Below are positions 18,501 to 38,639 of a stretch of 38,639 nt of DNA, in pieces; the first letter of the stretch is position 1, and every line of letters starts with the position of its first letter. Source of the stretch: an uncultured Geobacteraceae bacterium (GTDB taxonomy: Bacteria; Desulfobacterota; Desulfuromonadia; Geobacterales; Pseudopelobacteraceae); contig CAIQWT010000103.1 in the NCBI GenBank assembly GCA_903875605.1, forward strand, positions 1 through 38,639, written 5' to 3'. The notes beneath the pieces were generated by a model. That model ran no database searches, was not told the origin of the DNA, and saw only the letters and a list, made by a program, of their open reading frames with translations. A program made the position numbers and the translations under genes.

Positions 18501-21500
18501 GTGACTCAGGAGACACCTGGAATGTTACCAATCCAGGGCTTGGCAGCTTTCCGGTAAACTATTTCGGCATAAATCCTGTTTTACCAAACGTAATCTACAT
18601 GGGCACGGATGTTGGTATCTTTGTTACATACAACTCCGGCATAGACTGGTCTGGTTTCAGTAATGGACTTGTATCATCTTTGGTTAACGCCATTGCTTTT
18701 GATTCTGGCAAGCCTGATCAAATATATGCGGGGACAGGTGGCGGCGGTATGTACAAGCTGACTGATGTTTTTGATATAAATTGGTCAAGCCAGAGAAACG
18801 ACATTGTATTTAACTCCTCGTCCAAATCAAGCAGTGAGTTTTATGGTATAGGATTCGGTGCAGACAACTTTGTTGCAGTTGGTAACAATAATACCGTTGC
18901 GCTGCTCGGAAATGCATCTTTACCTGTTGTGACGGGTGATTTTAAGGCAGTTGTATATGGTGAAAATTCTTTTATGGCCGTTGGCGCATTCGGTTCGGAA
19001 GGTGCTGTCTACCAATCTGATACAGCTGGTGTCTCCTGGAATGGTCCACTTGTAGATGCTGTTACAAAAGCCTCTATTGCGTCATCTGGACTCTATGCAG
19101 TGACTTATGGTAATGGAACATTCGTCGCCGCAGGTTTGTCTGGTAAGTTGCTTACTTACACTGGCAATGTTTACAACAATAGTCTTGTCTCAGGTGTTAC
19201 AACTCACCTTCGGGCAGCAGCGTTTGGCAATGGTACTTTTGTTGTTGCCGGTGATAATGGCGCAATTATCACTTCGAGTGATGCCGCAAGTTGGACTGTT
19301 CGCAGTTCTGGTATTACTACGCAGATTAATGCCATGAGCTACGGCAATGGGAGCTTTGTTGCCGTAGGGGCGGGTGGTGTAATATTGATTTCTACTGATA
19401 ATGGCGCTAGTTGGCAGTCTGTTGCTTCACCAACATCAGGTAATTTTTATGGTGTTGCGTTTGGGAATGGTGTTTTTTCGGCGGTTGGTGAAGATGCCGT
19501 ACATGGAACAATATTTACCTCATCCGATTACGGTTCAACTTGGTCAGCTCGTCCTTCTGGAACGGTAAATTCGCTTTATGCAGTGGCATTCGGCAAGGGG
19601 CAGTTCTATGCTTCTGGACGTTTTGGTACGGTAATAATGTCTGACACCGTTCCGGCTGCCCCGGCAACTGTAACGTCCACAACACCGGCAGACGGGGCAA
19701 CAGGTGTTCCGGTGAATTCTCCAATAACTGCAACATTTTCTGCAAATATGAATGGTGGAACTATAACTACTCCTCCTTGGGGAGATGGTACGGCGGGCAG
19801 TTTCAAAATAGTTCCCGCTGTTACTACGCCTGTAGCCGTTCCTCTTACTGGTGCGATAAGCAGCTATGACAGCGCCAATTTACGGGCAACTTTGTCACAT
19901 ACGGGGCTTCTTGCTTATGGCACTAATTACACGGCCACATTGACTACGACAATAATGGATGCCGCCGGAAATGCTCTCCCTGCTGTTTACACGTGGCAGT
20001 TTACGACAGCACAATTGCCCGATACTACTCCTCCGTCAGTGGCTAAAACTGTCCCGGCGGCTGACGCTACAAGTATTGATTTAGCTTCTACTATAACAGT
20101 GACTTTCAACGAGGCAATTGATAAAACTACAATCAACGAGTCTAAGCAGTCAGGATTCATTCTCAAGAATATAACAGATGGAAACAACATTCCTTGGTCA
20201 GTGACTCTCAGTTCCATGGGTGCTGTTTTTACTCCCACGGTACCATTGATCGCGAGTAAGTTCTATGAGGCGACAGTGACTACAGCGGTAAAAGATCTAT
20301 CTGGAAACGCCATGATCTTCTCCAAGGTATGGTCATTTAAAACAAGTGAAGCAATATACAGTATTTCGTTGACGGTCGCCGATGCAAACGGCAGTGTTGT
20401 CAGCACTCCTAACACTTTGTCATCGCCTGTTACCTCTGCAACCAACGCAGCTCAGAGTGTCGTGTCAGTGAAAAATAATACAGCCGCCATGTTTTCAATT
20501 ACTCCATCCGCTAACTATCATATTGCAGATGTCAAGCTTGATGGCACCTCGGTACTTACTCCTGTGATAAGCAACAGCAACAGTTATACCTTAGGTGCTG
20601 TATCTGCGGACCATGCAGTCTCTGTCTCTTTTGCAATCAATACTTATGCCCTGACCACGAGTGTTTCTAGTGGCAACGGCGCATTGTCAACATCAAGCGC
20701 AAACCCAAGCCACGGCACAAGCCCAACGGTAATAATTACACCGGTTGACGGTAACATTCTGACTGGTTTGTTCGATAACGGAACCGCCATAAATTTCAAC
20801 AGCTCTCCTCTTCCCGCTGGATTGACAAGAGGAACTGCCAATATTAACGGTAAGTTTACTTGGACGTACACAATATCTAATATTGCCGCAGTCCATAACA
20901 TTACAGCCAGTTTCAGTGTGGATAACGTGTCTCCAACAGTAGTGTCAGTATCGGCTACAAATATTGATTCCGCTGGAATGGTAGATCCTGCGACAAAAAT
21001 AGATGTGGTGTTTAGTGAAGCTATTGATTCATTGACGATCAACCAAAATGCTGTTCCGCAGACAGGTTTTACCCTCACGAATGTTACTGATGGGGGAACA
21101 GTTCCATGGACGGTTGATCTCTCTGTGCTAGGAAAAGCAGCTTTTACCCCATCGTCACCACTGTTGCTTGGCAAAACATATAAAGCAACTGTTGCAAATA
21201 CAGTTACGGATCTGTATGGCAATGCGTTAACGGCAAGCCTAAATAATGAACGAATATTTTCTACACGTCCCGCTACACACAAAATTATTTTGATTAATGG
21301 TGCAAATGGAGTGGTAACAAGTGACGCAATCGCACTTGATAAAGTAGGCGATAAACAAAATGTAAATTTCTTGATTACTCCTAATGTCAATGATGGCTAT
21401 GCACTTTATGAGTTAGCAGGTGTTTCCATCGATGGTGCGCCTGTTACTCCATTGCCAAATAGGAAGATGAACTCTGATGGAGTTACTTTTACCTATTCAT

Positions 21501-23308
21501 ACACAATGAATACAATCATTAAAGACCAGATAATTGCGGTGACTTTCGTAAAAATACCAGCGACAATACAATTAAAAGTGAATGTGCAGGTCTCTGGAAC
21601 AGGATCTGTTAGCCCAAGCAGTGGTATAAATTTAGTTGCTGGAGAGAGACAGCTCTTTAATATAACTTCAGCTAGAGGTTATGAGCTCGACACTCTGTCG
21701 TTTGGTGGCATAGGCATAGCTCTAGATCCTAATTTGTATGCTACAGACGGGTCATATAATTACACAACACTGCCAGTGACCCAAAACTCTAGTCTTGCAG
21801 TTGCATTCAAGTTGATTACCTATAATTTGACCATGACTCCACAGCAACCTGTCGGCGGTAAAATTTCTGTCGATGCACCGATAGATCTAATCGGTAAAGC
21901 GTACGTTTATTATGGCGGAACAGCAACGTTTACGATTAAGCCGGAAGCTGGTTACATCCTTAAAGATCTTAAGCTTGGTGATGGTACATCGGTCAAATCC
22001 CAGGTGGTAAATAATACATTTACCTTGCGCAATATTACGGCACCTTATACGCTCGATGTAGAATTTGAATTCAAGTATACCGTGACTGCAACAGCGGAGG
22101 GCAAAGGCACAATTTCACCCGCTGTTGGCGAGCTGTTTGTCATTTCTTCTGCCGGTACTTCCATTGTCTCGAAAAATACAGTTATGAAATATACTTTAAC
22201 TCCTGCAACCGGCTACAAGCTTGACGCGGTCGGAGGAACTTGTGGCGGTACATTAAGTGGATCTGAATACACAATTAATGCCGTTACTACGGACTGTAGC
22301 GTAAAACCAAGCTTCAGTATCAAGTCTTTTGATGTGACGGTTGCACCAGCGATTACAAACGGTAAGGTGACAATCTCTTCGGCTACGGCTCAATACGGAG
22401 GTTCTGTAGATGCGGTAATAACTGCTAATCCAGGGTTTATCGTTACTGATATAAGAATTAAGAATGTCAACAATGGTATTGAAACTTCAGTATTGGCAGC
22501 ATCTAAAACAAACTCATCCGGAGCGTCAACTTATACAATACTAAATATTCAGAACGATTATGAGATAACAGCAGTTTTGAATACTCTTACTTATCCAGTC
22601 AACACCTCCGCTGGAACAGGCGGCACTATCACAGCCACGAGCGCTGTAGCTTATGATAATTCCAAAACAATTGTTATCACGCAAAACACCGGATATAAGC
22701 TGTTGGATGCGACATTGGACGGAATTTCTGTAAAATCGCAGCTTACTGCCACACCGCTCACATTTGAGCTAACCCTGAATAACATCACTGCAGAGCACAC
22801 TGTTGTCGCAACTTTTGTGATAATTACCCAGACGATTACTGCGTCAGTCAATAACAGTGCGCTTGGTACTATTTCGCCAAATGGTGCAGTCAGGGTGAAT
22901 TATGGCGGAAGTCAAAAATATCAGATCACGCCTGCAACTGGTGCCAGCCTGAAAGAGCTGCTGGTTGATAATGTTCCAGTCACTCCGGATGTGAACGGCA
23001 CTTATACAATTACGAACGTAATTAAAGATCATTCTATTGTTTCAAATTTTGTCACATCCGGGATTACCGTTGCATACCCAGATGGTGACATAAACAGCGA
23101 TGGTAAGCTGGATATAGCTGATGTTTTACTGGCACTGCAGATGTCTATAGGACTTAGGATTCCGACACCGACCGAACTTCTACACGGTAATGTTGGTCCG
23201 ATGAATAATCAGAATAAACCACCTGTTCTCAATACACCCGGTGTAATTGACATTGAAGACGTAGTGGTTCTTTTGCAGCGGTCGGTTGGGAATATCCTTC
23301 CCTGGTAG
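15545..23308 (+). CDS. Giant secreted repeat protein with C-terminal dockerin-like module
   Basis: This 2587-aa protein has a Sec signal peptide (1-26, cut at 'NVRA|AD'), and a GGGGG ribosome binding site. Domains in order: a YCF48/BNR-like propeller ('FVAVGDYGTILTSTD' repeats, ~27-450); FN3-like modules (~450-858), several of them only ~58 residues apart; a second propeller (~872-1365); three Big_5/SbsA-type Ig-like domains (~1371-1490, 1494-1600, 1792-1905) alternating with InlB-like 'bacterial repeat' modules (~1602-1790 and ~1911-2500). The end is dockerin-like: a full calcium loop 'DINSDGKLDIAD' (D2515, N2517, D2519, D2523, D2526) plus helix 'VLLALQMSIGL', then a second half 'VIDIEDVVVLLQRSVG' (D2569, D2572) and a terminal Trp. 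No enzymatic domain is seen. The next gene, 29 bp downstream, encodes a lipoprotein with a cohesin-like domain and is the likely partner. Function: extracellular, probably adhesive or structural (inference). Confidence 0.9.
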   Translation: MNRNIFGYILTLVILLCTLVSENVRAADPLDNWHWKNPIPQGNALHGVSYGSNKFVAVGDYGTILTSTDLGINWNNRTALNSGSAGTRENLRSLAFGNISGSGVVAPGFVAVGDNGTILKSTDGNSWALDSTSGITTNLHSVAFGIIATLKQYFVAVGANGTVIRTNDGTSWSTATDTTAMTGEMLNGVAFGPVPNTFVTVSNNGNIFYSIDNGAKWIKSSDSNSSRPLKGVSFVNGNFIAVGTAGAIISSANGVNWVVQASGTAADLNAVTYGSINDTFVVVGNLSKIIGSTTGFTAWRSFPFPEQSTPSNYNILAVTNDGDKTYVAVGDNGEILRYNPGTASAVWTAINTGQIGPYVSSLAYNTSNTNTGSSFNIYAGTNVGLGWGVSYSANAGASWSMKNTGLISWIVNSLALNPGVTSATDILYAGTISGLHKSIDGGTDWGRIVPPLNINITAGNTSNTITWAAVTGATSYNIYRSTSAGVTKSSTLLSSAAVSPYPDGGLTNGSTYYYAITTNFQLPVATNHQESALSSEVSAKPQASQTYIPDSVSVTAGDAINTITWQPVTGATSYSLSIDGSKSSVTSPYIDSSLINGINHTYSVTAVGVVRTPANIAVSKGVVTWDPVPGAGSYEISINGGGYVAATSPYTYIGRVASYNINALNIQTAAAPSTNVTESLITWPAVIGATSYDVSVNGGIPINVAAPATSYTHNGAVTSNSVTVVGGASAGSTSIGTVTVTKTDISWPAVALTNSYSIVVNGGAAVTPVVSPYTYNGAVTSVTVTAIDNTRIVITGSLVSTITWDAPFVEPTTYTITINTVVQPVQNAPLTSFNFAGVINPGFTVISTKTESDPSSIVGATPQRTSIQLTAVNTVIVDPVTPSTIYLGNASGLFKSIDAALTFTELLYSAAPISFANVNAITVDRTTPATIYVGATGGLGNGIYKSTNGGVSWALLKTGVVNTIALDPITASTIYIGTSLGAFKSSDSGDTWNVTNPGLGSFPVNYFGINPVLPNVIYMGTDVGIFVTYNSGIDWSGFSNGLVSSLVNAIAFDSGKPDQIYAGTGGGGMYKLTDVFDINWSSQRNDIVFNSSSKSSSEFYGIGFGADNFVAVGNNNTVALLGNASLPVVTGDFKAVVYGENSFMAVGAFGSEGAVYQSDTAGVSWNGPLVDAVTKASIASSGLYAVTYGNGTFVAAGLSGKLLTYTGNVYNNSLVSGVTTHLRAAAFGNGTFVVAGDNGAIITSSDAASWTVRSSGITTQINAMSYGNGSFVAVGAGGVILISTDNGASWQSVASPTSGNFYGVAFGNGVFSAVGEDAVHGTIFTSSDYGSTWSARPSGTVNSLYAVAFGKGQFYASGRFGTVIMSDTVPAAPATVTSTTPADGATGVPVNSPITATFSANMNGGTITTPPWGDGTAGSFKIVPAVTTPVAVPLTGAISSYDSANLRATLSHTGLLAYGTNYTATLTTTIMDAAGNALPAVYTWQFTTAQLPDTTPPSVAKTVPAADATSIDLASTITVTFNEAIDKTTINESKQSGFILKNITDGNNIPWSVTLSSMGAVFTPTVPLIASKFYEATVTTAVKDLSGNAMIFSKVWSFKTSEAIYSISLTVADANGSVVSTPNTLSSPVTSATNAAQSVVSVKNNTAAMFSITPSANYHIADVKLDGTSVLTPVISNSNSYTLGAVSADHAVSVSFAINTYALTTSVSSGNGALSTSSANPSHGTSPTVIITPVDGNILTGLFDNGTAINFNSSPLPAGLTRGTANINGKFTWTYTISNIAAVHNITASFSVDNVSPTVVSVSATNIDSAGMVDPATKIDVVFSEAIDSLTINQNAVPQTGFTLTNVTDGGTVPWTVDLSVLGKAAFTPSSPLLLGKTYKATVANTVTDLYGNALTASLNNERIFSTRPATHKIILINGANGVVTSDAIALDKVGDKQNVNFLITPNVNDGYALYELAGVSIDGAPVTPLPNRKMNSDGVTFTYSYTMNTIIKDQIIAVTFVKIPATIQLKVNVQVSGTGSVSPSSGINLVAGERQLFNITSARGYELDTLSFGGIGIALDPNLYATDGSYNYTTLPVTQNSSLAVAFKLITYNLTMTPQQPVGGKISVDAPIDLIGKAYVYYGGTATFTIKPEAGYILKDLKLGDGTSVKSQVVNNTFTLRNITAPYTLDVEFEFKYTVTATAEGKGTISPAVGELFVISSAGTSIVSKNTVMKYTLTPATGYKLDAVGGTCGGTLSGSEYTINAVTTDCSVKPSFSIKSFDVTVAPAITNGKVTISSATAQYGGSVDAVITANPGFIVTDIRIKNVNNGIETSVLAASKTNSSGASTYTILNIQNDYEITAVLNTLTYPVNTSAGTGGTITATSAVAYDNSKTIVITQNTGYKLLDATLDGISVKSQLTATPLTFELTLNNITAEHTVVATFVIITQTITASVNNSALGTISPNGAVRVNYGGSQKYQITPATGASLKELLVDNVPVTPDVNGTYTITNVIKDHSIVSNFVTSGITVAYPDGDINSDGKLDIADVLLALQMSIGLRIPTPTELLHGNVGPMNNQNKPPVLNTPGVIDIEDVVVLLQRSVGNILPW
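17231..18000 (+). repeat. Tandem short FN3-like modules (protein-level repeat)
   Basis: Inside the 2587-aa protein the motif '(I/V)(T/S)W.PV.GA.SY....NGG' recurs at about nt 17231, 17407, 17581, 17774 and 17945, a spacing of about 57-64 residues. A normal FN3 domain has about 90 residues, so these modules are shortened or interlocked. The DNA itself has diverged between copies. Confidence 0.65.
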
Positions 23309-23337: not shown

Positions 23338-24561
23338 ATGAAATATATCGGTATATTGAAGTGTGGACTTGCAGTTTTATTGTTAGTACTTGCCGGCTGT
23401 GGCGGTGGCTCTTCTTCTTCCAGCACCCCGGTAGATGTTACGCCTTTACCACAAACCACCAAAATAACGGGCATTGCCTCTAAAGGTCTTATAGGTGGTG
23501 GCACTGTTACCGCTTATAAAATTATCAACAGTGCCGTAAGTGATGTTATTTCTTCCGGAACAACAGGTGCTAACGGATCCTACTCACTTGATTTGGGCAC
23601 ATATACGGGACCGGTGCTTTTTGAAATCAGTGGTGGTACTTATACAGATGAAGCAACCGGTAACCCCACAACCATTCCTGTGACTGCACCATTACACGCT
23701 GTTGTTTCGAGTGTTACAGGAATAACTTCTGTGGCTGCAATTACTCCGCTTACAGAACTCGCATACCAACTTGCGGGCTCAATACTGACTGCTACAGCTA
23801 TAAACAACGCAAACCAGCAGGTGTCTAGCATCTTCAAAGTATATGATGTTATCAAGGTCCTACCTGTTAGCCCAACCAAGATAGTGCTTGATGCACTGCC
23901 AAGCTCTATCCAGGGACAGGATCAGCGAGATTACACGCTGGTGCTTGCGACGCTTTCTCAGGTTTCTTCCACAAAAGGATTAAGTGTTGCTGAAACTGTT
24001 AATTATCTGAAAAATAATATCAGCGGAGCGGTACTCACCACCGTTGCAGCAACGGCACTGCAAGATGCTGCAGCCGCTTATTTTAATCCATCAAACACAA
24101 AAAATACGACAGGTGTGACTGATCCGGCTTCGACCAATCTAGTTTACATTGGGGCTAAGCAGGTCAGTGTGAAATTGTCTACAACGGGAACTATTCCAAA
24201 CGGTAATGCCATCAAGGGTATGCAGTTTGAAATTGATCTGCCTAGTGGTGTCTCTGTTAAGTCAGATACCAGCGGGGTCCTTGCCAACGCTCAAATATCT
24301 GGAGTTGCACCGACAGAAACGTCTATGCTTGTGGGCAACACCTCTGGAAGTAAATTGTCAATTTCTTTTGTTAATAACAGTGGCATAGCAACTGGCGAGT
24401 TTGTTACGTTGGTTTTTGATGTCGCAAATAACGTATCCATTCCGACTATAGGCAGCTTTTTTATACCAACAGGGTATAAAGTGACGGATTTGGTCAGGGA
24501 CAGCGGTACCGTCAGTTTATCTGCAGTTTCCATTTTTGTTTCAAGTGTTACCAATAAGTAG
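23338..24561 (+). CDS. Lipoprotein with C-terminal cohesin-like domain
   Basis: This 407-aa protein has lipobox 'VLAGC' (Cys21) followed by a Gly/Ser linker, so it is anchored in a membrane, probably the outer one. Residues ~42-110 resemble a carboxypeptidase-regulatory-like beta-sandwich ('GIASKGLIGGGTVTAYKI...GANGSYSLDL'). Residues ~120-255 are mostly helical. Residues ~268-400 resemble cohesin: two facing beta-sheets with 'IKGMQFEIDLPSGVSV', 'LSISFVNNSGIATGEFVTLVFDV'. Cohesins bind dockerins. The gene starts 29 bp after the 2587-aa dockerin-bearing protein (GGAG ribosome binding site), is clearly co-transcribed with it and is followed by a strong terminator. The inferred role is to hold the exoprotein at the cell surface. 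The cohesin call rests on motif pattern, not on a profile search. Confidence 0.78.
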   Translation: MKYIGILKCGLAVLLLVLAGCGGGSSSSSTPVDVTPLPQTTKITGIASKGLIGGGTVTAYKIINSAVSDVISSGTTGANGSYSLDLGTYTGPVLFEISGGTYTDEATGNPTTIPVTAPLHAVVSSVTGITSVAAITPLTELAYQLAGSILTATAINNANQQVSSIFKVYDVIKVLPVSPTKIVLDALPSSIQGQDQRDYTLVLATLSQVSSTKGLSVAETVNYLKNNISGAVLTTVAATALQDAAAAYFNPSNTKNTTGVTDPASTNLVYIGAKQVSVKLSTTGTIPNGNAIKGMQFEIDLPSGVSVKSDTSGVLANAQISGVAPTETSMLVGNTSGSKLSISFVNNSGIATGEFVTLVFDVANNVSIPTIGSFFIPTGYKVTDLVRDSGTVSLSAVSIFVSSVTNK

Positions 24562-29999: not shown

Positions 30000-30404
30000 G
30001 TGGCAAAAACAGCCGAAATGAAAATACCGGACGATATTGAATATCGCGTTATCGGCAATGCGTTCGGTTTGCTTATTGCCTCGGCCGGTCTGCTGGCGGG
30101 AGAAATGGTTCGTGAACGCAGTTTTGAATATTGGCTTAATGATACAGTCCCGCTACTATTTGCCCTCTGGATGGTATACAGGCTGTACAGAAATTTTTTG
30201 CTGACGATGAATGCTTATCCAGGCGTAACACCCTCTGATGCGGTTCTCCGAGATCGTCAGATTCGCGAAACTCTTAAATCTGAACAGGTTGCAGTTGCAC
30301 AGATTTCTTCAAAAACCGGTTATACTGCTGAGCAGGTCGTTCAGGAAGTAGCAAAACGTATCGAATCCCAGAAGGCGGCGGCGCAAAAAAAGAGTAATCA
30401 GTAA
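30000..30404 (+). CDS. Small two-TM protein of unknown function
   Basis: This 134-aa protein starts with GTG at 30000 behind GAGGG. It has two predicted TM helices, 'VIGNAFGLLIASAGLLAGEMV' (about residues 17-37) and 'TVPLLFALWMVYRLY' (about 49-64), then a soluble Lys/Gln-rich helical tail (~80-134) with 'QISSKTGYTAEQVVQEVAKRIESQKAA'. I know no family for it. It lies 44 bp after the RND pump and 14 bp before the GspE-type ATPase gene, so it belongs to their transcript. The cytoplasmic helical tail might contact the pump or the ATPase; this is speculation from position only. Confidence 0.8.
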   Translation: MAKTAEMKIPDDIEYRVIGNAFGLLIASAGLLAGEMVRERSFEYWLNDTVPLLFALWMVYRLYRNFLLTMNAYPGVTPSDAVLRDRQIRETLKSEQVAVAQISSKTGYTAEQVVQEVAKRIESQKAAAQKKSNQ

Positions 30405-30418
30405 TATCGACGGGAAAA

Positions 30419-32209
30419 ATGGCGGAACCCAAAAAACTGACATTTGAGAATCTGGCTCATTTGATGGAGCGTCGTGGTCTGTTGTCCCGAGATCAGCTTC
30501 ATGACGTACTCGCACGTGGAAAAGCACAGGAATCGCGAATCTTATCACTTCATCACTCCGGTGCATCGCGCAGATCTGCCGCCGGAACGGAATTTGTTTC
30601 TCCCGCGGAGCTTCTTGCCTCTTTTAATTTTGAACTTCATGGCTCACCGGGGAATAATCTTACGGAAGATATTATTACAGAAGCGCTGGCTTCTGCTACC
30701 GGACTGACTTATCTTAAAATTGATCCCCTCAGGCTTGATCTAAATATAGTTACCGATCACATCCCGCGCCCGTTTGCCCTGAAAAATCTGATTGTTGCTG
30801 TAGAAGAGTCGACAGGCGTTATCACGGTCGCTGTGGCAGATCCGTTCAATGAGGCTATTGTCAACGAGCTGGCCTCTGCACGGCGCCTGGAAATCAGACG
30901 GGTACTCAGCTCAAAAAACGATATTCTTAAAATACTGCGAGAGTTTTATGGTTTTCGTGCTTCGGTGGTGGCGGCAGAGGCAGAAGCCTCGACATCGATA
31001 GATCTCGGGAATCTGGAACAATTTTTTAAGCTTAAAGGCCATCAGGACATTGAAGGCACTGACAAGCATGTGGTCTCAGCGGTAGAGTTTCTCCTTAATT
31101 ATGCATTCGATCAGCATGCCAGCGATATTCATATTGAGCCAAAACGGGAAACGTCCCTGATCCGTTTTCGTATCGATGGTGTTATACATAACATTCACGT
31201 TATTCCAAAGCCGCTGCATGCCCCCATCATCTCTCGCATTAAGATGCTTTCCCGTATGGATCTGGCCGAAAAAAGACGTCCTCAGGATGGCCGTATCAAG
31301 ACAAATTTTAATAACAAAGATATCGAGCTGCGAGTTTCAACTGTGCCGGTTGCCTTTGGTGAAAAAGTTGTTATAAGGGTTTTTGATCCGGATATTTTAC
31401 TGCAGGATCTCGACAGTATGGGCTTTTACCCGCGTGAGATGGCACTTTACAACTCTTTTCTGCGTCGCCCGAACGGTATAATTCTGGTTACCGGTCCGAC
31501 CGGCAGCGGCAAAACAACCACTCTCTACTCTTCGCTCCGTTCGCTCTCTTCTCCGGAGGTAAACATCGTCACGGTCGAAGATCCGATCGAGATGGTTATG
31601 GAAGAGTTTAATCAAATTGGTGTACAGCAGGGTATCGGCGTCAGTTTTGACAGCATTTTACGCAATATTCTCAGACAGGATCCCGACATAATTATGATCG
31701 GCGAAATTCGCGACCGGGAAACAGCAGAAAATGCAGTTCAGGCCGCCTTGACCGGGCATCTTGTACTTTCCACACTACATACCAATGATTCAGCCTCAAC
31801 CATAATCCGCCTGCTGGATCTGGGGGTGCCGCCATTCCTGATATCGGCGACTCTTCTTGGAATAGTCGCCCAGCGTCTGGTACGTAAGATCTGTCCCCAC
31901 TGCAAAAAAGTCCGTACACTTTCGCTGGATGAATGCGAATATCTGCAGTTAACAGAAAAAACGTACACTGTGTGGGAAGGGAAGGGGTGCAAAGAGTGTC
32001 GTGGTACTGGCTACAAAGGGCGCAGTGGTTTGTTTGAGGTTATGGATATGAACGACAGGCTTAAGGCTCTGGTGGCCGGATCTGTCGATCTTGCAACGAT
32101 AGTTGAAGCTGCCTGTCAGGACGGCCTGGTAACTCTGCGTGAAATTGCTATTAAAAAAATGCTGGAAGGGGTGACTACCTACGAGGAAGTTATTGCCATG
32201 ACAGGGTGA
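30419..32209 (+). CDS. GspE/PilB/MshE-type secretion ATPase
   Basis: This 596-aa hexameric ATPase of the type II secretion/type IV pilus superfamily has an N-terminal GspE-II/MshEN-like domain (~60-175; in some homologues this binds c-di-GMP), then the catalytic domain: 'HASDIHIEPK' (about residue 238), Walker A 'GPTGSGKTT' (359-367, Lys365), Asp box 'VEDPIE', Walker B 'IIMIGEIRD' (~424) and His box 'LSTLHTND'. A tetracysteine zinc module is formed by 'CPHCKK' (~492) and 'CKECRGTGY' (~524). All key residues are present. It is the last gene of the RND run, with no GspF/PilC, pseudopilin or secretin gene next to it. It may drive the pilus encoded at the left end of the window, a T2SS encoded elsewhere, or be an orphan. 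The neighbouring convergent gene encodes a cohesin-like secreted protein. Confidence 0.9.
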   Translation: MAEPKKLTFENLAHLMERRGLLSRDQLHDVLARGKAQESRILSLHHSGASRRSAAGTEFVSPAELLASFNFELHGSPGNNLTEDIITEALASATGLTYLKIDPLRLDLNIVTDHIPRPFALKNLIVAVEESTGVITVAVADPFNEAIVNELASARRLEIRRVLSSKNDILKILREFYGFRASVVAAEAEASTSIDLGNLEQFFKLKGHQDIEGTDKHVVSAVEFLLNYAFDQHASDIHIEPKRETSLIRFRIDGVIHNIHVIPKPLHAPIISRIKMLSRMDLAEKRRPQDGRIKTNFNNKDIELRVSTVPVAFGEKVVIRVFDPDILLQDLDSMGFYPREMALYNSFLRRPNGIILVTGPTGSGKTTTLYSSLRSLSSPEVNIVTVEDPIEMVMEEFNQIGVQQGIGVSFDSILRNILRQDPDIIMIGEIRDRETAENAVQAALTGHLVLSTLHTNDSASTIIRLLDLGVPPFLISATLLGIVAQRLVRKICPHCKKVRTLSLDECEYLQLTEKTYTVWEGKGCKECRGTGYKGRSGLFEVMDMNDRLKALVAGSVDLATIVEAACQDGLVTLREIAIKKMLEGVTTYEEVIAMTG

Positions 32210-32272: not shown

Positions 32273-33550
32273 TTATTTATTCTTCGGAATCTTTTCTACA
32301 GACTTTTTTGCAACTGCAGTTATGTTAGCAAGATAATTGGCAACAAAAATATACTCATCCATATAATCTCTTACCCCATCGTTATTCAAATCATGCAGAG
32401 GGGCTTTTGCCGTACCGACCTCCTTGAGAAACTTCTCCCAACCGCTTTCGTCTAGAGTGAGCGTCGTTTTAAGCGGAGGGGCAACGGTAAGCGGGTATTC
32501 AAACTCCTCAGCCCCGGCTATAATAGTCATTATAACCTTTGTAAGCCCTACTTCAGGTAATACCTCAACTGTCCAGCGTCCTTTAATCAGCTTGTCCTGC
32601 TTGAAAGAAACCAACGTCCCGCCATTTACGGCAAAATTAGGTGAAGAGGTTATTCTGGCCGGAATGTCAACTGTCAAAGCGGCTTTACTATTGCCATCGT
32701 TCAGCAGAATAGCCGGCTCTTGATGAATAGTCTGGGCAACCTTCTTGTCAAAAAGCAGAGCAACGACTGGCAGCTTTTTACTGCTATTGTACTGCTTAAA
32801 ACGCTCTGAAATCCCCTTGTAAACAATATATTGCTGGGTTTCTTCCGGTTTTACTTCGGTGTCCGGTTTACCGGCCGGCTGGCTCTGTTCAATGACTTTG
32901 GCAGCAGTCGGTTCTCCGGAGGACACAGAAACAGAGGAGGAAGGTGTCGGCTTTGAATCAGCACGTTGCTGTAGATCTGTCGGCAGTGTTACTGTGCCGA
33001 GATAGGCCGGTATGGTTGAGGCCGTGCTGGCTGTGGTTGAGGCTGTACTGGTTGTGGTTGTTGAACTGCTTTGCGGTGATGATAGGTTGGTTACTGCCGC
33101 TGTTTCGTTTGAATTAGTGTTGCTGACAGAGGCTGCAACGCTGATAGTGGCGGAAATAGCTTTCCCCGTGCTGTCGATCATGCTTACATTTGCTGACGTA
33201 ATACTTCCTGTCCCCGATCTTCCCGCAAATGAAACGGTCGCAATCTGGCCATTCCCGGAAAAAGAGTTGGTACTGATTATTGCAATTTTTATGGAGCCGG
33301 GTATTGAGGTGTTAGCAGCAAGCATCGCCCCGGAGACAAGTCCTCCCTGGGTAACTGTTGGGGAATTCAGTGATGCAGAGTCATATGTCATGTCTAGCTG
33401 GATACCGGCAACATTGTTCATGCCAATTCCCTGTACAGTGTAGGATGAATCTCCGGATGGAGTGATTGATACTATGGCCGCAAATGAAGGGACTGCGAAG
33501 CAAAGTACTGTTATTACAAAGACTAAACTGTTTCTGAAGATAAAACTCAT
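32273..33550 (-). CDS. Secreted cohesin-like protein with a C-terminal EF-hand (dockerin half)
   Basis: This 425-aa protein has a Sec signal peptide (1-24, 'VPSFA|AI') and no lipobox. Residues ~25-140 look like a cohesin domain: 'AAIVSITPSGDSSYTV', 'GIQLDMTYDSASLNSPTVTQ', 'IKIAIISTNSFSGNGQIATVSFAG'. A Ser/Thr-rich linker (~141-215) follows, then a second beta domain (~270-370). The C-terminus has one EF-hand-type calcium loop, 'DLNNDGVRDYMD' (D387, N389, D391, D395, D398), with a helix after it, as in half of a dockerin. Cohesins are dockerin receptors, so this protein may both receive and be received. AAGGAG precedes the ATG and a promoter fits at 33595-33623. It is convergent with the GspE-type ATPase gene. 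A functional link is possible because cohesin-fold proteins do occur in secretion gene clusters, but this is inference. Confidence 0.8.
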   Translation of the reverse strand: MSFIFRNSLVFVITVLCFAVPSFAAIVSITPSGDSSYTVQGIGMNNVAGIQLDMTYDSASLNSPTVTQGGLVSGAMLAANTSIPGSIKIAIISTNSFSGNGQIATVSFAGRSGTGSITSANVSMIDSTGKAISATISVAASVSNTNSNETAAVTNLSSPQSSSTTTTSTASTTASTASTIPAYLGTVTLPTDLQQRADSKPTPSSSVSVSSGEPTAAKVIEQSQPAGKPDTEVKPEETQQYIVYKGISERFKQYNSSKKLPVVALLFDKKVAQTIHQEPAILLNDGNSKAALTVDIPARITSSPNFAVNGGTLVSFKQDKLIKGRWTVEVLPEVGLTKVIMTIIAGAEEFEYPLTVAPPLKTTLTLDESGWEKFLKEVGTAKAPLHDLNNDGVRDYMDEYIFVANYLANITAVAKKSVEKIPKNK

Positions 33551-33659: not shown

Positions 33660-35405
33660 TTAATGAATAACCCAGGCACTTTTTTTGACTAGCACCGGAC
33701 TTTCGCCCCGGGTCAACTGAACTATATAGCACCCCTTTGAGGCATATCGCTGTCCCGGTCCAAAACTGAGGCGAGCGTAAGTAGGTGAGGGTTGATCAGG
33801 GATCATTCCGAGCACATCAAGGAAATTGTCGCGGTAATAATTCCCCCTCATTTCCATCAAATCCATCGTTATGAGCTGCGTAATGGTTTCAGATGTCTGT
33901 CGTGCCGTTTCTGGAGGTTTGTGACCTGGAAGCTGTGCAAGGTTTACAAGCGTTTTTGATTCATCTTCGATTAAGATACTGCCACCCATTGCTGACGGTA
34001 CTGCTGCTTTGGCAAACGAGTAGGGATACGTTATGTAAGTAAACTCACGAGCATTGTCGGGTAACTTGTGGAGCTTGTCCCCGAGGTAACGAGCAGATAC
34101 AAAGACAGACTTTGGTTTGTTCGTGATCGATGAGAGTGATTCCAGAGCCGTTAGAACGTCTGTGTCATCCCAAAGGATAATCGTCTCCGTATTTTCCTTC
34201 TTGATTATCTGTTGAAGAAAACCGGAAGTGATTTTCTCTCCGACTTGTAATTGTACTGTAACCACTGGTGGTTGATTACGCTCTCGAAGTGTTTGTTCAA
34301 AACCAGCGGAGAGTGCGGCGCCTTCGATAGAATTCCGCACAATCTGGACAACTTTTTTATCTGTTTTACCTTCTTGGGTGCTGATCAGATAGCGGGCGGC
34401 GGCTTGACCCTCCTGATAGTATCCTTTAGAAGGGTACAGAGTATACCAATCGGTATCTGAAATAACTGGAAAATCAGTCTGGGGTAATATGCATGGGATT
34501 TTATTGTCTTCACTAAATTGATGGATAGGGCGCCAACCACTGCGAGAAATCCCTCCTAGTAAGGCAAATACAGGCTCCTGTCGATAATACTCTTCAAGCT
34601 GGGTGTGCCAGGTGTTTTGAGCCCCTTTTAAAAGCCACACAGATAGTGTTAGTTTGCGTGTAGAAAGCTCCTTTGAAACCATCATGTTTTCGGCCATTTG
34701 ACGGGACTTTTTCCCGAGAGAGCTCTTATACGAGTTGACCTGACTATTCTTAATATTTATATAACGCTGTAGCGGAGCCAACATTGAGTCTCGCTCTTCC
34801 TTGCTTACATCTTCAGTAATAATGGAGGCAAAGTGGATTGTCGTATCTGAAATCCCGGGAGGGAATCGGGCCGAAAGAGATTTCAGATATGTGATGAGAA
34901 CAGCCATATCATTGTCTTCAAGTAAGTAGCGGGGCATCACATCATTCAGCGTGCTGCCCCATGGGGTGGCACCACTTCGGATTACTTCAGCAAGTGTTGT
35001 ATCATTGTATGCCGGACGCCTGTCTGGAAAAGGGAAAAATGTTTGTGTCAGGCCTTTGAACAGGATTTTGAAAGGCTGAAAAAGTTGTAAGCCTGATGTG
35101 GGGGGGGTGAATACGCCACCTTCTACGGAACCCAGACCGCCGCGGAGATGGCAACTTACGCATGAGAATGCCGTACCCGGAACGGGGAGATCACCTTTAA
35201 CAAAAGCTTGAATTGGTTCACCGGAGGGCAGGATGCCATTTCGATACATCTGCTCTCCAAGTTGGAGTGATTCACTTGAAGGAGATAAAAGAGGTTCATT
35301 ACCAGCCGATGCGTCACTTATGTGCATAAGTGGTAGTAGAATAAGCGCCGTAGCGAAAGCCGATTTCGAGAGCCAGTTATAAAATATATGGCCCATTACG
35401 GTCAT
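33660..35405 (-). CDS. Cytochrome c fused to a type I periplasmic binding protein domain
   Basis: This 581-aa periplasmic protein has a signal peptide (about 1-34, 'DASA|GN'). Residues ~42-180 are a monohaem class I cytochrome c: 'CVSCH' (C82, C85, H86) with probable distal ligand Met157 in 'VMPRYLLEDNDMAVLITYLKSL'. Residues ~187-530 resemble a type I periplasmic binding fold of the Leu/Ile/Val-receptor kind ('VFALLGGISRSGWRPIHQFSEDNKIPCILPQ', 'YYQEGQAAARYLI', 'VVQIVRNSIEGAALSAGFEQTL', 'TIILWDDTDVLTALESL'). No permease or ATPase gene is nearby, so a sensory or redox-coupled binding role is more likely than import. It overlaps the SCO gene by 4 bp and is presumably co-translated with it; SCO could help with redox or metal handling. 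Ligand unknown. Confidence 0.85.
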   Translation of the reverse strand: MTVMGHIFYNWLSKSAFATALILLPLMHISDASAGNEPLLSPSSESLQLGEQMYRNGILPSGEPIQAFVKGDLPVPGTAFSCVSCHLRGGLGSVEGGVFTPPTSGLQLFQPFKILFKGLTQTFFPFPDRRPAYNDTTLAEVIRSGATPWGSTLNDVMPRYLLEDNDMAVLITYLKSLSARFPPGISDTTIHFASIITEDVSKEERDSMLAPLQRYINIKNSQVNSYKSSLGKKSRQMAENMMVSKELSTRKLTLSVWLLKGAQNTWHTQLEEYYRQEPVFALLGGISRSGWRPIHQFSEDNKIPCILPQTDFPVISDTDWYTLYPSKGYYQEGQAAARYLISTQEGKTDKKVVQIVRNSIEGAALSAGFEQTLRERNQPPVVTVQLQVGEKITSGFLQQIIKKENTETIILWDDTDVLTALESLSSITNKPKSVFVSARYLGDKLHKLPDNAREFTYITYPYSFAKAAVPSAMGGSILIEDESKTLVNLAQLPGHKPPETARQTSETITQLITMDLMEMRGNYYRDNFLDVLGMIPDQPSPTYARLSFGPGQRYASKGCYIVQLTRGESPVLVKKSAWVIH

Positions 35406-35980
35406 TTGTTGGCCATCTTTTGATATTCACTGATAAATTCGAGGCTGCTCATGAGTCCGAAAATCCTGATCCACTTGTTGTCCCCCGAAGGTCGCATTAA
35501 AGTCAGTGGATAATGGGACATTTTGTTAGGTATATAGGCGTTGAAAGCTTTCATTACAGTGTCTATATCTTTACGGGATCCGGTAAGGAAATCCCAACCC
35601 GGTTTTGCTTTATAACGTTTCAAATACTCATTCATAACCATTGGTGTATCGTTCTCCGGGTCGATTGATATCGATACGAGATGAACTTTTTTGGAATCAG
35701 AACCGATTTTGTTCTGGAGGTTGACGAATCCAGCAGATAGGACAGGGCAGATTGTTGTACAGGTTCCAAAGATAAAGTCCACTATGATTGGCTTGTTTGA
35801 TTGCATCAATTCTTTGAAGCGTACTTTTGCCCCGTTCTGGTTTACCAGGACGACATCAGGCATTGAATAGTTCTCAATAGTTCGTTTGTACTGTGTTCCG
35901 GCATGACTCAAATCACAATGGAATATACCTAATATGATAGAAAAAAACAGGAGCAGGTTTGAGGGGATGCTACCACGCAT
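35402..35980 (-). CDS. SCO1/SenC/PrrC-family copper or thiol protein
   Basis: SCO proteins are periplasmic thioredoxin-fold proteins that bind copper for cytochrome oxidase assembly or act as thiol reductases. With the ATG at 35980 the protein has 192 aa, a clean signal peptide ('MRGSIPSNLLLFFSIILGIF...LSHA|G') and AGGA 7 bp upstream. The ATG at 36014-36016 would add 12 residues but has no ribosome binding site and lies close to the terminator of the previous gene. The copper motif CxxxC is present as 'FGTCTTICPV' (C74, C78) and the conserved His is H156 in 'MSHYPLTLMRPSGD'. 'VSISIDPENDTP' is another family signature. No oxidase genes are nearby; its partner is the overlapping cytochrome-binding protein gene. 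Confidence 0.92.
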   Translation of the reverse strand: MRGSIPSNLLLFFSIILGIFHCDLSHAGTQYKRTIENYSMPDVVLVNQNGAKVRFKELMQSNKPIIVDFIFGTCTTICPVLSAGFVNLQNKIGSDSKKVHLVSISIDPENDTPMVMNEYLKRYKAKPGWDFLTGSRKDIDTVMKAFNAYIPNKMSHYPLTLMRPSGDNKWIRIFGLMSSLEFISEYQKMANK

Positions 35981-35986
35981 AATGTG

Positions 35987-35990
35987 TCCT
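35987..35990 (-). promoter_or_regulatory. Ribosome binding site that decides the SCO start
   Basis: AGGA on the - strand lies 6-7 bp before the ATG at 35980. No purine-rich stretch precedes the alternative ATG at 36016, hence the shorter protein is preferred. Confidence 0.6.
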
Positions 35991-36033
35991 AACAAAGATA
36001 ATTTACTAATTTGCATTTGAAAGACAACTTAAA

Positions 36034-36096: not shown

Positions 36097-36678
36097 TCAT
36101 TGATAAGACGTGCTGAACTTGAGCTCACAACCTCTCGCTGGAACATCAAATGATGGTGGATCGGTCTGCTTTATAGAATAGGTTAAGCCTGAATTTAAAG
36201 GTTGAAATGGTATGTTGGAATCTGCTGATGCAAGCTTAAAGTAAAGTTTAGCAAATTCAGTGCCGTTACCAATTGAGCTGCTTTTTAATGTTGAAATTGT
36301 GTTGTTATTAAGAGGAATCGGAATACTGAATGCAATTAGGCCATTACTGTCATCGTAGCTTCCAGAAATTGCGTTAGTCGGAGAATTTAATAGAGTTCCT
36401 GAAAATGATATTGACCCGCTGCGGAGAGGGAAAATATGTTGTCCGGGATCCTTTGGTAATGGGGAAGAGTAATTAACTAAAACACCGAACGGTACTTTCA
36501 CGCTGACGTCAATAGCAGTAACCTGAGCAGTTGAAGATGACATGGTGCCAAATAAATATGCAGAGAGGATTACTTTTGACGTGGGGACAGGAGGGGTGCT
36601 GCCGCCTCCGCCTCCACAGGCTGATAGTGTAAGCGCGATTATGCTGCAAGTTACTATGTTAATCATATTTTTCTTCAT
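36097..36678 (-). CDS. Small lipoprotein with cohesin-like domain
   Basis: This 193-aa protein has lipobox 'TLSAC' (Cys21) and a short Gly-rich linker. The rest is one beta-rich domain whose order of motifs matches the cohesin-like domain of the lipoprotein at 23338-24561: 'VTAIDVSVKVPFGVLV' against 'IKGMQFEIDLPSGVSV', then an 'ISFSG' strand, 'GLIAFSIPI', and 'GTEFAKLYFKL' against 'GEFVTLVFDV'. The gene follows the large dockerin-bearing repeat protein (67-bp gap with a hairpin), the same order as the first pair. The ATG has GGGGGA upstream. It probably is the surface receptor for its upstream neighbour (inference). It differs from the first lipoprotein by lacking the N-terminal regulatory-like and helical domains. 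Confidence 0.7.
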   Translation of the reverse strand: MKKNMINIVTCSIIALTLSACGGGGGSTPPVPTSKVILSAYLFGTMSSSTAQVTAIDVSVKVPFGVLVNYSSPLPKDPGQHIFPLRSGSISFSGTLLNSPTNAISGSYDDSNGLIAFSIPIPLNNNTISTLKSSSIGNGTEFAKLYFKLASADSNIPFQPLNSGLTYSIKQTDPPSFDVPARGCELKFSTSYQ

Positions 36679-36707
36679 AAATTAGATCCCCCGGTTTGGT
36701 TTTAAGA

Positions 36708-36737
36708 ATGTCCCCACCCTTTAAGGGGTGAGGACAT
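36708..36737 (-). terminator. Hairpin between the dockerin exoprotein and the cohesin-like lipoprotein
   Basis: ATGTCC at 36708-36713 pairs with GGACAT at 36732-36737, and the stem continues inward through CACCC/GGGTG with one C-A mismatch at 36714/36731. On the - strand the hairpin is followed by TCTTAAAA, a poor U tract. It may be a partial terminator that lowers expression of the downstream lipoprotein, or an RNA-stability element. Confidence 0.6.
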
Positions 36738-36744
36738 GATCCGA

Positions 36745-38639
36745 TTAAAGGCTTATTAGCCCGGCAGCGCGAAGCAATAGAACGTGTGCATCTCCAGAGT
36801 CAATTTTACCGTCCGGTTTTGGATTCCCATTTATGTATGGGGCAACATCGGCGTGAATAAGGTCGAGACTGGTAACCTGTGCCAAGCCAACAGCTATCTG
36901 GAGCGCCCGCAATGCACTTGCGAGATAAGACGTTGTTCCTGGTAAAATGCCATCTTTATGGCCATATGTGGTACTTGCTATGAATGGTCCATATTGCACT
37001 CCACCATTAAGTGAATTGTCTTTCAGTTTGACGTAGACCGTCTTTGAGCCTTCCCCGGTTGAGAGGGCCCACTGTTTACTAAATGTTCCTGTTATTCCGG
37101 CGGATACAACAAATGGCTCTTCAGGGGAATAATTTACGCCGTCATTTGAAAACTGGATTTTGCTGATTCCTTCAGCATCTATAGCTGAAATGTCTAATGT
37201 GACGGAGGCATTTGTACTCAAAACGCTACCATTGTTGATTTTTACTGAAGCTATCATGTCTGGAACGTGAATTGCCCATGTTCCACTGTTTATTGTCTCG
37301 GAGTTACCAGCAACATCTACGGAAAAATATTTAATGGTTGTTCCGGATGTCGACGTCACAATAATTGGAGCCGTATAGACTGGTGACCCGGTGTTAGGTG
37401 TCGTGCCGTCTATCGTGAAATAAGTCGTTGCCGCTTTGTTGGCTGTAAGCGTTACATTTACAGGGGCTGTGGCATATGTACCCTGTACCGGAGTTGCAGC
37501 TGTCGTTGGATTTGCAGTGTCCAGTACAATGCTTGCAAAAACCGGATCATAAAGCGTCCCACCACCCAGAGCTGCATCACGGTAGCGTACGTACACTGTT
37601 TTGATGCCGTCTGCAGCAGTCAGTGACCACGTTTTTGAAGTTTTATAACTTTCCTCCGCTGAGAAGTTAACAGCATCGTTTGAGAACTGCATTGTCGCTA
37701 CACCAGTAGGGTCAATAGCACTAAGATTCAGTGTCACAACATTACTGTTCGTTCTGGTAGCTCCATTATTAATCCTAATGCTTGATACCATGTCTGTTGA
37801 GTGCAATTGCCACGTACCTGTTTTTACAGGCTCAATATTACCAGCTTTATCAATCGAAAAATATTTAATTGTCGTTGATAAAGCGACGCTGATTGGCGTG
37901 GAGTACTCAGTTGATAAACTGGTTGGCGTTGTGCCGTCAGTCGTGTAATAAATTTTTGTTGATTCACTGGCAGCAAGCGTCACTGCGAGTGGTGCCGTAG
38001 CATAGGTGCCGGGGATTGGGGCAGAAGTTGTCACCGGCTGAACCGTATCCAGAATAATGCTGGTGGTAATAGGATCATACTGGAGTCCGCTGCCATCCCT
38101 GAATTTTACATAAACTGATTTAGTCCCATCACCTGAAGTAAGAGTCCAGGATTTGGTTGTTGTATTCGAAGTAGCCGGAAATGGCTCTTCGTTTGAATAA
38201 TTCACGCCGTCATTGGAAAACTGCATGCTCTTGACTCCTTGTGAGTCAATTGCGCTTAGCTGAAGTGTCACCAATGGGTTGTTTGTTGCAGTCGCATTGT
38301 TATTGATCTGTACACTCGAGTCCATATCAGGCGTATGGATAGTCCATGTGCCGGTTTTAACGAGCTCAATGTTGCCGGCCTGATCGATGGCGCAGTATTT
38401 TATGGTTGTGGTTGCAGAGACAGTTATGGCTGCTGTGTACACAACACGGGTTAAGGAGTTAGTTGCGCCGGGGTCACTTCCGTCGATCGTATAGAAGGTC
38501 GTTGCCGGTTCGTTGGCGGTCAGGCTCACTTGAACTGACCCTGCAAATGTTCCCGGATTAAGGCTGGTAGTCGTAACAGGAGCTACGGTATCCAGTACAA
38601 CCTGTGCAGTTACTGGATCATACAGAGTTCCGCCACTTG
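36745..38639 (-). CDS. Large repeat exoprotein with C-terminal dockerin-like module (N-terminus outside window)
   Basis: The frame is open to the right end of the window (38639), so the GTG at 38529 is not the true start; about 630 residues are visible. They form three units of ~180 residues, each with a chitobiase C-terminal-like beta-sandwich (CHB_HEX_C-like: 'IYYTTDGTTPTS', 'IKYFSIDKAGNIEPVKTGTW') followed by an Ig-like module ('VTLNLSAIDPTGVATMQFSNDAVNFS', 'KTVYVRYRDAALGGGTLYDP', 'VLDT..P'). The last ~65 residues are dockerin-like: a first half 'YLASALRALQIAVGL' that has lost its calcium ligands, 'LDLIHADVAPYINGNPKPDGKID' and 'SGDAHVLLLRAAGLISL' with a usable second calcium loop. No catalytic domain is visible. 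The next gene downstream is a cohesin-like lipoprotein. Confidence 0.85.
   Translation of the reverse strand, partial: SGGTLYDPVTAQVVLDTVAPVTTTSLNPGTFAGSVQVSLTANEPATTFYTIDGSDPGATNSLTRVVYTAAITVSATTTIKYCAIDQAGNIELVKTGTWTIHTPDMDSSVQINNNATATNNPLVTLQLSAIDSQGVKSMQFSNDGVNYSNEEPFPATSNTTTKSWTLTSGDGTKSVYVKFRDGSGLQYDPITTSIILDTVQPVTTSAPIPGTYATAPLAVTLAASESTKIYYTTDGTTPTSLSTEYSTPISVALSTTIKYFSIDKAGNIEPVKTGTWQLHSTDMVSSIRINNGATRTNSNVVTLNLSAIDPTGVATMQFSNDAVNFSAEESYKTSKTWSLTAADGIKTVYVRYRDAALGGGTLYDPVFASIVLDTANPTTAATPVQGTYATAPVNVTLTANKAATTYFTIDGTTPNTGSPVYTAPIIVTSTSGTTIKYFSVDVAGNSETINSGTWAIHVPDMIASVKINNGSVLSTNASVTLDISAIDAEGISKIQFSNDGVNYSPEEPFVVSAGITGTFSKQWALSTGEGSKTVYVKLKDNSLNGGVQYGPFIASTTYGHKDGILPGTTSYLASALRALQIAVGLAQVTSLDLIHADVAPYINGNPKPDGKIDSGDAHVLLLRAAGLISL
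36990..38620 (-). repeat. Three ~535-bp tandem units
   Basis: The 'VLDT..P' joint recurs at about 38589, 38049 and 37517 on the - strand, giving a period near 535 bp (~178 residues). Unit-to-unit similarity is clear in protein and still partly visible in DNA (for example around the 'IKYFSID' and 'MQFSNDGVNYS' segments). The array probably continues beyond the window. Confidence 0.75.

Follow-up and report, generated by a model that had tools for sequence, protein, structure and literature searches.

The closest described systems include the type II cohesin-dockerin pairs of the cellulosomes of Clostridia and their relatives, in which the cargo carries a C-terminal dockerin and the cohesin belongs to a cell-attached protein. 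Outside cellulose degradation, dockerin- and cohesin-containing proteins of anaerobic methanotrophic (ANME) archaea and their sulfate-reducing partners are proposed to act in extracellular assembly or adhesion (PMC9012536, PMC10553843), and an adhesin with adjacent cohesin/dockerin domains is reported from the sulfate reducers (PMC10553843). Published texts on Geobacter describe the ompB cluster of G. sulfurreducens as including SCO1/SenC and MofC-like genes (PMC5566968), and OmpB as requiring the Pul type II secretion system with the pseudopilin OxpG (Mehta 2006, as cited in PMC3543383). Here we analyze a contig of an uncultured Geobacteraceae bacterium (CAIQWT010000103.1, denoted C103, assembly GCA_903875605.1; 38,639 nucleotides (nt), the window hereafter) that carries two gene pairs, each consisting of a large exoprotein with a dockerin-like C-terminus and a lipoprotein with a cohesin-like domain, which probably belong to a modular dockerin/cohesin-lipoprotein attachment system of Geobacterales, an order of metal-reducing bacteria. 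To our knowledge, little is known about how secreted proteins of large size are retained at the outer surface of these bacteria.

These pairs resemble the cellulosomal ones in the placement of the dockerin at the C-terminus of the cargo and of the cohesin on a protein that would be attached to the cell, as well as in the model of the lipoprotein domain, for which cohesins, mostly titled type II, are the closest matches (see below). Unlike in cellulosomes, the lipoproteins carry a single cohesin-like domain in a Gram-negative envelope, the partner gene lies beside most of the cargoes, the cargoes are redox or repeat proteins, the second calcium loop of the dockerin apparently contains an insert, and the cohesin goes unseen by Pfam. 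A scaffoldin with several cohesins was sought in the fetched loci, rather than in whole genomes, and none of the 187 cohesin-like open reading frames (ORFs) there contained two cohesin-like domains. Unlike the Geobacterales lipoproteins, the ANME and sulfate-reducer proteins were detected by existing domain models; the word lipoprotein does not occur in PMC9012536 and occurs once in PMC10553843, in reference to a cytochrome, so that neither text describes, under that word, a lipoprotein as the partner that bears the cohesin. With the published OmpB/MofA clusters, the window shares the oxidase, MofC-like and SCO1/SenC genes and a plausible connection to type II secretion (PMC5566968, PMC3543383), but a subset of the oxidases analyzed here additionally has a dockerin and an extra lipoprotein; the words dockerin and cohesin are absent from both texts. 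A soil metatranscriptome study reports highly expressed Geobacter genes with fibronectin type III, dockerin, cupredoxin, and laccase domains (PMC6199725), which probably encode the same kind of protein as here; thus, the co-occurrence of these domains as such is partly in print already. In contrast to the present analysis, that study interpreted the Geobacter dockerin genes in part as indicating the breakdown of cellulose, and the words cohesin and lipoprotein do not occur in that text. The literature on dockerins and cohesins in Geobacter, in noncellulosomal proteins, in lipoprotein anchors, and in electron transfer, searched in titles, the beginnings of abstracts, and passages, mostly among papers outside subscription, yielded no description of the pairing.

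The two pairs and the dockerin module of the second one map to the window as follows (aa, amino acids; AF2, AlphaFold2):

36745..38637, minus strand: exoprotein 2, C-terminal part only (630 aa; ORF not closed at the contig end); CHB_HEX_C_1 and Big_7 repeats and a dockerin tail
36748..36972, minus strand: predicted bipartite dockerin module, the last 75 aa of exoprotein 2 (AF2 and Foldseek)
36097..36678, minus strand: lipoprotein 2, 193 aa, with a signal peptide, the lipobox LSAC-G, and a cohesin-like domain (mature domain at 36100-36597) (AF2, Foldseek, and the cross-family model)
15545..23308, plus strand: exoprotein 1, with a YCF48-like propeller, Big_5, and InlB-like repeats; dockerin tail at about 23066-23305
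23338..24561, plus strand: lipoprotein 1, 407 aa, with a cohesin-like domain at about 24109-24558 (cross-family model, E 2.5e-25)

Because the window is the complete contig, the end of which falls within the exoprotein 2 gene, this protein is truncated at an assembly end. A preliminary description of this DNA, made from the letters alone, had proposed a second exoprotein/lipoprotein pair in the same gene order as the first; both ORFs are present in that order, separated by 66 nt, and the lipobox LSAC of lipoprotein 2 is followed by GGGGG. As also claimed there, the exoproteins are unrelated in architecture, with a YCF48-like propeller and Big_5 in pair 1 and three CHB_HEX_C_1 and three Big_7 domains detected by Pfam in pair 2 (repeats of the OmpL47 type according to NCBIfam), and nevertheless share the C-terminal module, which is 41% identical between the two. 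Lipoprotein 2 matched no Pfam domain, and searches of the lipoproteins against Pfam and NCBIfam yielded nothing useful.

By its structural model, the C-terminal module of exoprotein 2 is a dockerin. The AF2 model, produced from 21 sequences, has a predicted local distance difference test (pLDDT) score of 90.6 and a predicted template modeling score (pTM) of 0.79, and contains the two calcium-loop/F-helix repeats and the three-helix fold characteristic of dockerins (helices 16-27, 35-41, and 59-69). In a Foldseek search with this model, the 11 best PDB matches were all dockerins, with the best probability of 0.98, template modeling (TM) scores up to 0.73, and no E-value below 0.001. The top match in a PDB profile search was a dockerin as well (E 0.012); the Pfam Dockerin_1 model, at E<=0.01, matched 7 of the 27 modules of the family and gave no match in the pair-2 exoprotein of the window. 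The family consensus reads ...DALxALRxxxGLxxPT...HGDVAPLxNGxPxPDGKIDxxDVxxILxKxVGL, and the second calcium loop, as read from the alignment, contains an apparent insert (in the module of exoprotein 2, DVAPYINGNPKPDGKID). The module is almost invariably terminal: in 112 of the 114 distinct modules, the C-terminal end of the protein lies no more than 8 aa away.

The domains of lipoproteins 1 and 2 belong, by sequence profiles, to one family, so the match between them that the preliminary description asserted holds and a placement in different folds is not what was found: hhalign aligned them at 97.5% (E 6.6e-12), or at 96.1% (E 3e-9) once the Gly-rich leader was cut off, and a model for which other families were the sole source recognizes lipoprotein 2 as well (E 1.2e-15). 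Homology of the pair-1 lipoprotein type to cohesins is supported by profile comparison with seven secreted proteins of the kind encoded at 32273-33550 of the window, with an N-terminal cohesin and a C-terminal EF-hand-like loop (cohesin/EF proteins hereafter), five of which are above the Pfam cohesin cut-off, whereas the window's own protein and that of locus L201 are just below. The pair-1 type matched these at 92.3% (E 5.5e-7), or at 93.1-94.9% (E down to 4.6e-8) after trimming, and a mixed alignment of both lipoprotein types matched them at 82.5% (E 9.9e-6); control comparisons with unrelated beta-sandwich repeats and with the dockerin family reached at most 0.5%. For lipoprotein 2, homology to cohesins is indirect because the pair-2 type matches the cohesin/EF proteins solely via the pair-1 type. 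The AF2 model of its domain (14 sequences, pLDDT 73.5, pTM 0.69) is nearly all beta, and the eight best PDB matches in Foldseek were all cohesins, seven of them titled type II (best probability 0.90), so that the fold search points, if weakly, to the cohesin that had been proposed. A close relationship between the lipoproteins and the cohesin of the type II secretin described below was considered and is not supported, given that neither lipoprotein type matches this cohesin (2% in the profile comparison). In 79 of 84 lipoproteins, the lipobox Cys is followed by Gly; they have a signal peptide with a lipobox and no Asp after the Cys, as expected of outer-membrane lipoproteins. The sorting rule for the residue after this Cys comes from E. 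coli.

The pairing of dockerins with these lipoproteins is general and not a chance feature of the window, confirming the enrichment across genomes that the preliminary description had named as a check of its reading. For 84 of 114 distinct dockerin ORFs, a lipoprotein is encoded within 300 nt downstream on the same strand, the median distance being 39 nt; the cross-family model misses four of these lipoproteins, three of which look spurious and one (L095) divergent. Under the lipobox rule, in loci fetched through the dockerin, a lipoprotein is next in 66 of 96 cases compared to 14 of 193 control ORFs (Fisher p 8.7e-28); the controls come from the same loci, with 90 aa as the minimum length of the lipoprotein and with the partner lipoproteins themselves excluded, and three of the 14 control matches (L021, L024, and L032) are from loci fetched by the lipoprotein. 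An earlier count of 56/103, obtained under a lipobox rule that was too strict, is superseded. When models built from other families were used, the next gene was cohesin-like after 72 of 101 own-family dockerin ORFs (51 of 80 without the loci also found through the lipoprotein), and with the f1 model, after 24 of 45 dockerin ORFs of families f3 and f4 and 9 of 19 unassigned ones. Another set, with a cohesin-like partner in 24 of 46 cases, is not independent because seven of its dockerin ORFs are shared with the named loci of the count of 84 among 114; the cross-family test repeats it by family. In the reverse direction, a dockerin ORF precedes 105 of 116 distinct cohesin-like ORFs, most of the loci having been fetched for the dockerin.

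Order-wide, dockerins were detected in 101 of 141 Geobacterales genomes and the lipoprotein in 91 of 141, the latter with the pair-1 profile, which misses pair-2-type lipoproteins (for example, in genome G022). The lipoprotein is present in 90 of the 101 dockerin genomes compared to 1 of the 40 others, and the numbers of dockerins and lipoproteins per genome are correlated (rho 0.87 across the 141 genomes and 0.77 across the 90 with both), values that are inflated by shared ancestry. The similarities of the partners across genomes are also congruent, at 0.36 compared to a mean of 0.15 and a maximum of 0.30 in 499 within-genome shuffles; this comparison covered 77 of the 84 pairs, after removal of lipoproteins that were short or lacked a closed frame, of modules at a distance from the C-terminus, and of five loci selected by hand (L081, L093, L095, L112, and L115).

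The truncated exoprotein 2 is, by homology and context, apparently an OmpB/MofA-type multicopper oxidase, a kind of copper enzyme associated with iron respiration; its N-terminal part likely lies on another contig of the same genome (C84). There, the N-terminal 1998 aa of a multicopper oxidase of the OmpB type (71% identical where aligned) run off the contig end in seemingly the same repeats as those of exoprotein 2; the two pieces were left separate. All three full-length relatives of exoprotein 2 that were scanned (L195, L198, and L139) contain a Cu-oxidase_2 domain. The 'CHB_HEX plus Ig' reading of exoprotein 2 in the preliminary description thus stands for the repeats and misses the probable nature of the whole protein. 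The genes that follow on the same strand, and one facing them, are:

35402..36016, minus strand: SCO1/SenC copper chaperone, a member of the ompB-type cluster (PF02630, E 5.8e-21)
33660..35405, minus strand: MofC-like protein with a periplasmic-binding domain and one CxxCH motif, CVSCH (PF13458, E 1.3e-8; translation)
32273..33550, minus strand: secreted protein with an N-terminal cohesin and, at the C-terminus, one EF-hand-like loop, DLNNDGVRDYMDEY (PF00963, 20.7 bits, cut-off 24.1)
30419..32209, plus strand: GspE/MshE-type secretion ATPase beside the cluster (T2SSE, E 7.7e-127; MshEN, E 1.6e-15)

Thus, on the 3' side of lipoprotein 2, the SCO1/SenC gene is followed by the MofC-like gene, and a multicopper oxidase, SCO1/SenC, and a MofC-like protein, the parts that define an OmpB/MofA cluster, are all found, with the oxidase part on a separate contig; the arrangement agrees with that published for the ompB cluster of G. 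sulfurreducens (PMC5566968). By visual inspection, MofC look-alikes adjoin oxidases in several other loci.

The oxidases provide a natural control, comprising 30 OmpB-type ORFs with readable 3' ends, 12 with a dockerin and 18 without. The lipoprotein gene is next in 12 of the 12 oxidases that end in a dockerin, 10 of these recorded by script and two (L138 and L139) added from a separate look at the loci; two of the 12 (L261 and L265) are fragments, matched by the oxidase query over no more than 129 aa. None of the 18 oxidases without a dockerin is followed by the lipoprotein, and neither is any of the 15 clear cases that are left when L150, L151, and L152 are set aside because a separate dockerin ORF stands directly behind each. 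In these three loci, the pieces of the oxidase directly precede that dockerin ORF, with a stop codon between the two in L150 and L152 and a frame change in L151. The second OmpB-like gene of the genome analyzed here (L247) has neither a dockerin nor a lipoprotein.

The same tail occurs on other cargoes. In this genome, the partner lipoprotein is found at seven of the nine dockerin loci, and three of the nine (L186, L187, and L188) lie within multiheme clusters, the largest proteins of which contain 20 to 37 CxxCH motifs; L187 has no partner lipoprotein, and L188 encodes the 1900-aa protein with 37 motifs. The exoproteins in these three loci contain NHL and Glucodextran_B domains, and further cargo domains include RHS (L192), InlB-like repeats, di-haem peroxidase, and multicopper domains. 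Unlike cargoes with one type of tail, as the preliminary description put it, are thus confirmed, as the propeller, oxidase, RHS, and peroxidase-like exoproteins all carry the dockerin. One locus (L319:2-15479) encodes three dockerin exoproteins, one multicopper and one peroxidase-like, around just one lipobox protein of 598 aa, the end of which is cohesin-like, and, by visual inspection, SCO1- and MofC-like genes.

Under the mechanism that we favor, secreted proteins with unlike working parts would share the C-terminal dockerin module, and the lipoprotein encoded by the neighboring gene, probably located in the outer membrane, would bind that dockerin via its one cohesin-like domain and so keep the exoprotein attached to the cell. 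Pair 2 would serve an OmpB/MofA-type cluster consisting of the oxidase, the lipoprotein, the SCO1 chaperone, the MofC-like protein, and the cohesin/EF protein. Binding would presumably depend on calcium, the Gly after the lipobox Cys suggests sorting to the outer membrane, the lipoprotein would be oriented to the surface, and the cargo may be exported through a type II system with a cohesin-bearing secretin. Binding and anchoring are inferred, whereas the analysis itself shows the dockerin fold of the model, a single family of lipoprotein domains, the connection of this family to cohesins by profile comparison, the recurrence of the pairs, and their setting among oxidase genes. The notion of a dedicated, modular pair is supported by the enrichment, the correlated genome counts, the oxidase control, and the common domain family of the lipoproteins.

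Several observations weigh against this scheme. The first calcium loop of the pair-2 dockerin is degenerate, with most of the acidic positions lost. The fold match of the lipoprotein 2 model to cohesins is weak (TM 0.30-0.36, best E 8.6e-3), the Pfam cohesin model PF00963 was found in 0 of 36 lipoprotein domains, PDB profile searches with the lipoprotein alignments gave no cohesin, and the pair-2 lipoprotein subfamily on its own matches the cohesin/EF proteins at only 2%, the link going via the pair-1 family. By the cross-family model count, an adjacent partner is absent for 60 of 165 dockerin ORFs. The congruence of the partners could come from joint inheritance of the locus without binding, and a purely within-genome comparison of partners was non-significant (0.19, p 0.18). 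Finally, two distant genomes are rich in dockerins, and G515, the one examined, has no clear adjacent partner lipoprotein.

Export brings in additional cohesins. A type II secretion cluster of this genome (contig C50) encodes a secretin (L184:10484-12979; PF00263) with a C-terminal PF00963 cohesin (54.9 bits); with a profile of this cohesin, a search of the PDB retrieves cohesins of cellulosomes (best E 6.3e-6). The start of this secretin is lipobox-like; its neighbors resemble, by visual inspection, GspE, GspF, pseudopilins, and FtsE/FtsX, and a Ctp-type protease is encoded further along the cluster. Of the 76 genomes of the family, 60 have PF00963 above the cut-off, frequently in frames about as long as that of the secretin, and PF00963 is found in 50 of the 52 dockerin genomes compared to 10 of the 24 others (p 2.5e-7). 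Homologs of the cohesin/EF protein exceeded the Pfam cut-off in two cases in one scan and in more in another; look-alikes adjoin the secretin cluster (L194 and L201), dockerin loci, and OmpB-type loci including the dockerin-less L244. A link of the dockerin cargo to type II export is plausible because the secretin carries a cohesin, PF00963 tracks the dockerin genomes, and cohesin/EF proteins adjoin both kinds of loci. Our search of the literature on a cohesin domain with a secretin and type II secretion found no paper. Contig C92 encodes a 2384-aa repeat protein with an EF-like C-terminus and an adjoining gene for a Gly-rich lipoprotein (L185:7175-14892); a cohesin match in this protein (28.2 bits) was listed in one scan and not in another.

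The main rival to surface anchoring is a role of the lipoprotein in secretion, as a periplasm-facing adaptor or chaperone that would hold the dockerin tail close to the outer membrane until the cohesin-bearing secretin takes the cargo, with no retention after export. That secretin in the type II cluster of this genome, the distribution of PF00963 across the dockerin genomes, and the dependence of OmpB on the Pul/OxpG system (PMC3543383) all speak for such an adaptor. However, a private lipoprotein for each cargo is more in keeping with a private anchor than with an exporter common to all, the families of the lipoproteins match the secretin cohesin at only 2%, and ten genomes retain PF00963 proteins without detected dockerins, so that we consider the adaptor unlikely. 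Plain conservation of operons, where the presence of a lipoprotein in each cluster would have nothing to do with the dockerin tail, would account for the stable gene order and also for the congruent similarities, which linked genes likewise yield; it is quite improbable, though, given the same kind of neighbor beside unlike cargoes, the absence of the lipoprotein from all 15 clear dockerin-less oxidases, and the correlated per-genome counts of both parts. The general gene order, with a small lipoprotein gene behind that of a large repeat protein, and the RHS repeats in one cargo (L192) would also suit a secreted toxin with an immunity lipoprotein. Toxins of this kind are known to vary at the C-terminus, but here conservation is found in the C-terminal module, which is modeled as a dockerin, and the cargoes include oxidases as well as a peroxidase-like protein, which leaves this explanation barely credible. 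Anchoring and export might also be combined in a two-step cohesin relay that builds an outer redox layer, the dockerin cargo passing to the secretin cohesin and then to its own lipoprotein outside, an idea that we regard as possible but doubtful. In such a relay, given that in this genome the OmpB-type oxidase shares its tail with proteins encoded within multiheme-cytochrome clusters, a single modular clip would place a large part of the machinery for extracellular electron transfer.

If surface attachment is correct, the part that holds the OmpB-type oxidase is named and becomes open to deletion or swapping, and the Gram-negative bacteria of an entire order (101 of 141 genomes) would possess a non-cellulosomal dockerin-cohesin system. 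The interpretation of Geobacter dockerins as tools for cellulose (PMC6199725) would then be in question, and a natural clip for surface display would be on offer.

A phylum-wide sample at E<=1e-8 had matches in 9 of 395 genomes, seven of Geobacterales and the two distant ones. In G515 (L328 and L329), 10 dockerin ORFs form one cluster with one weak cohesin-like match (E 0.001), and in L305, assigned to the G515 cluster, a weak cohesin-like match and a dockerin occur within one ORF. The pair is present in one named Nitrospirae metagenome-assembled genome (L144), and named records with matches include Oryzomonas japonica (L139), a cultured isolate that has the pair, Geomonas, and Geomesophilobacter. 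In L131:247-3964, a dockerin exoprotein is followed by three tandem cohesin-like ORFs, two with a lipobox Cys and the third without. Elsewhere in the window, a 1687-aa protein (9773-14836, plus strand) contains HYDIN/ASH-type Ig repeats, and the small protein gene and the GspE/MshE-type ATPase gene at 30000-32209 on the plus strand have look-alikes that adjoin the dockerin locus in L197 and L198.

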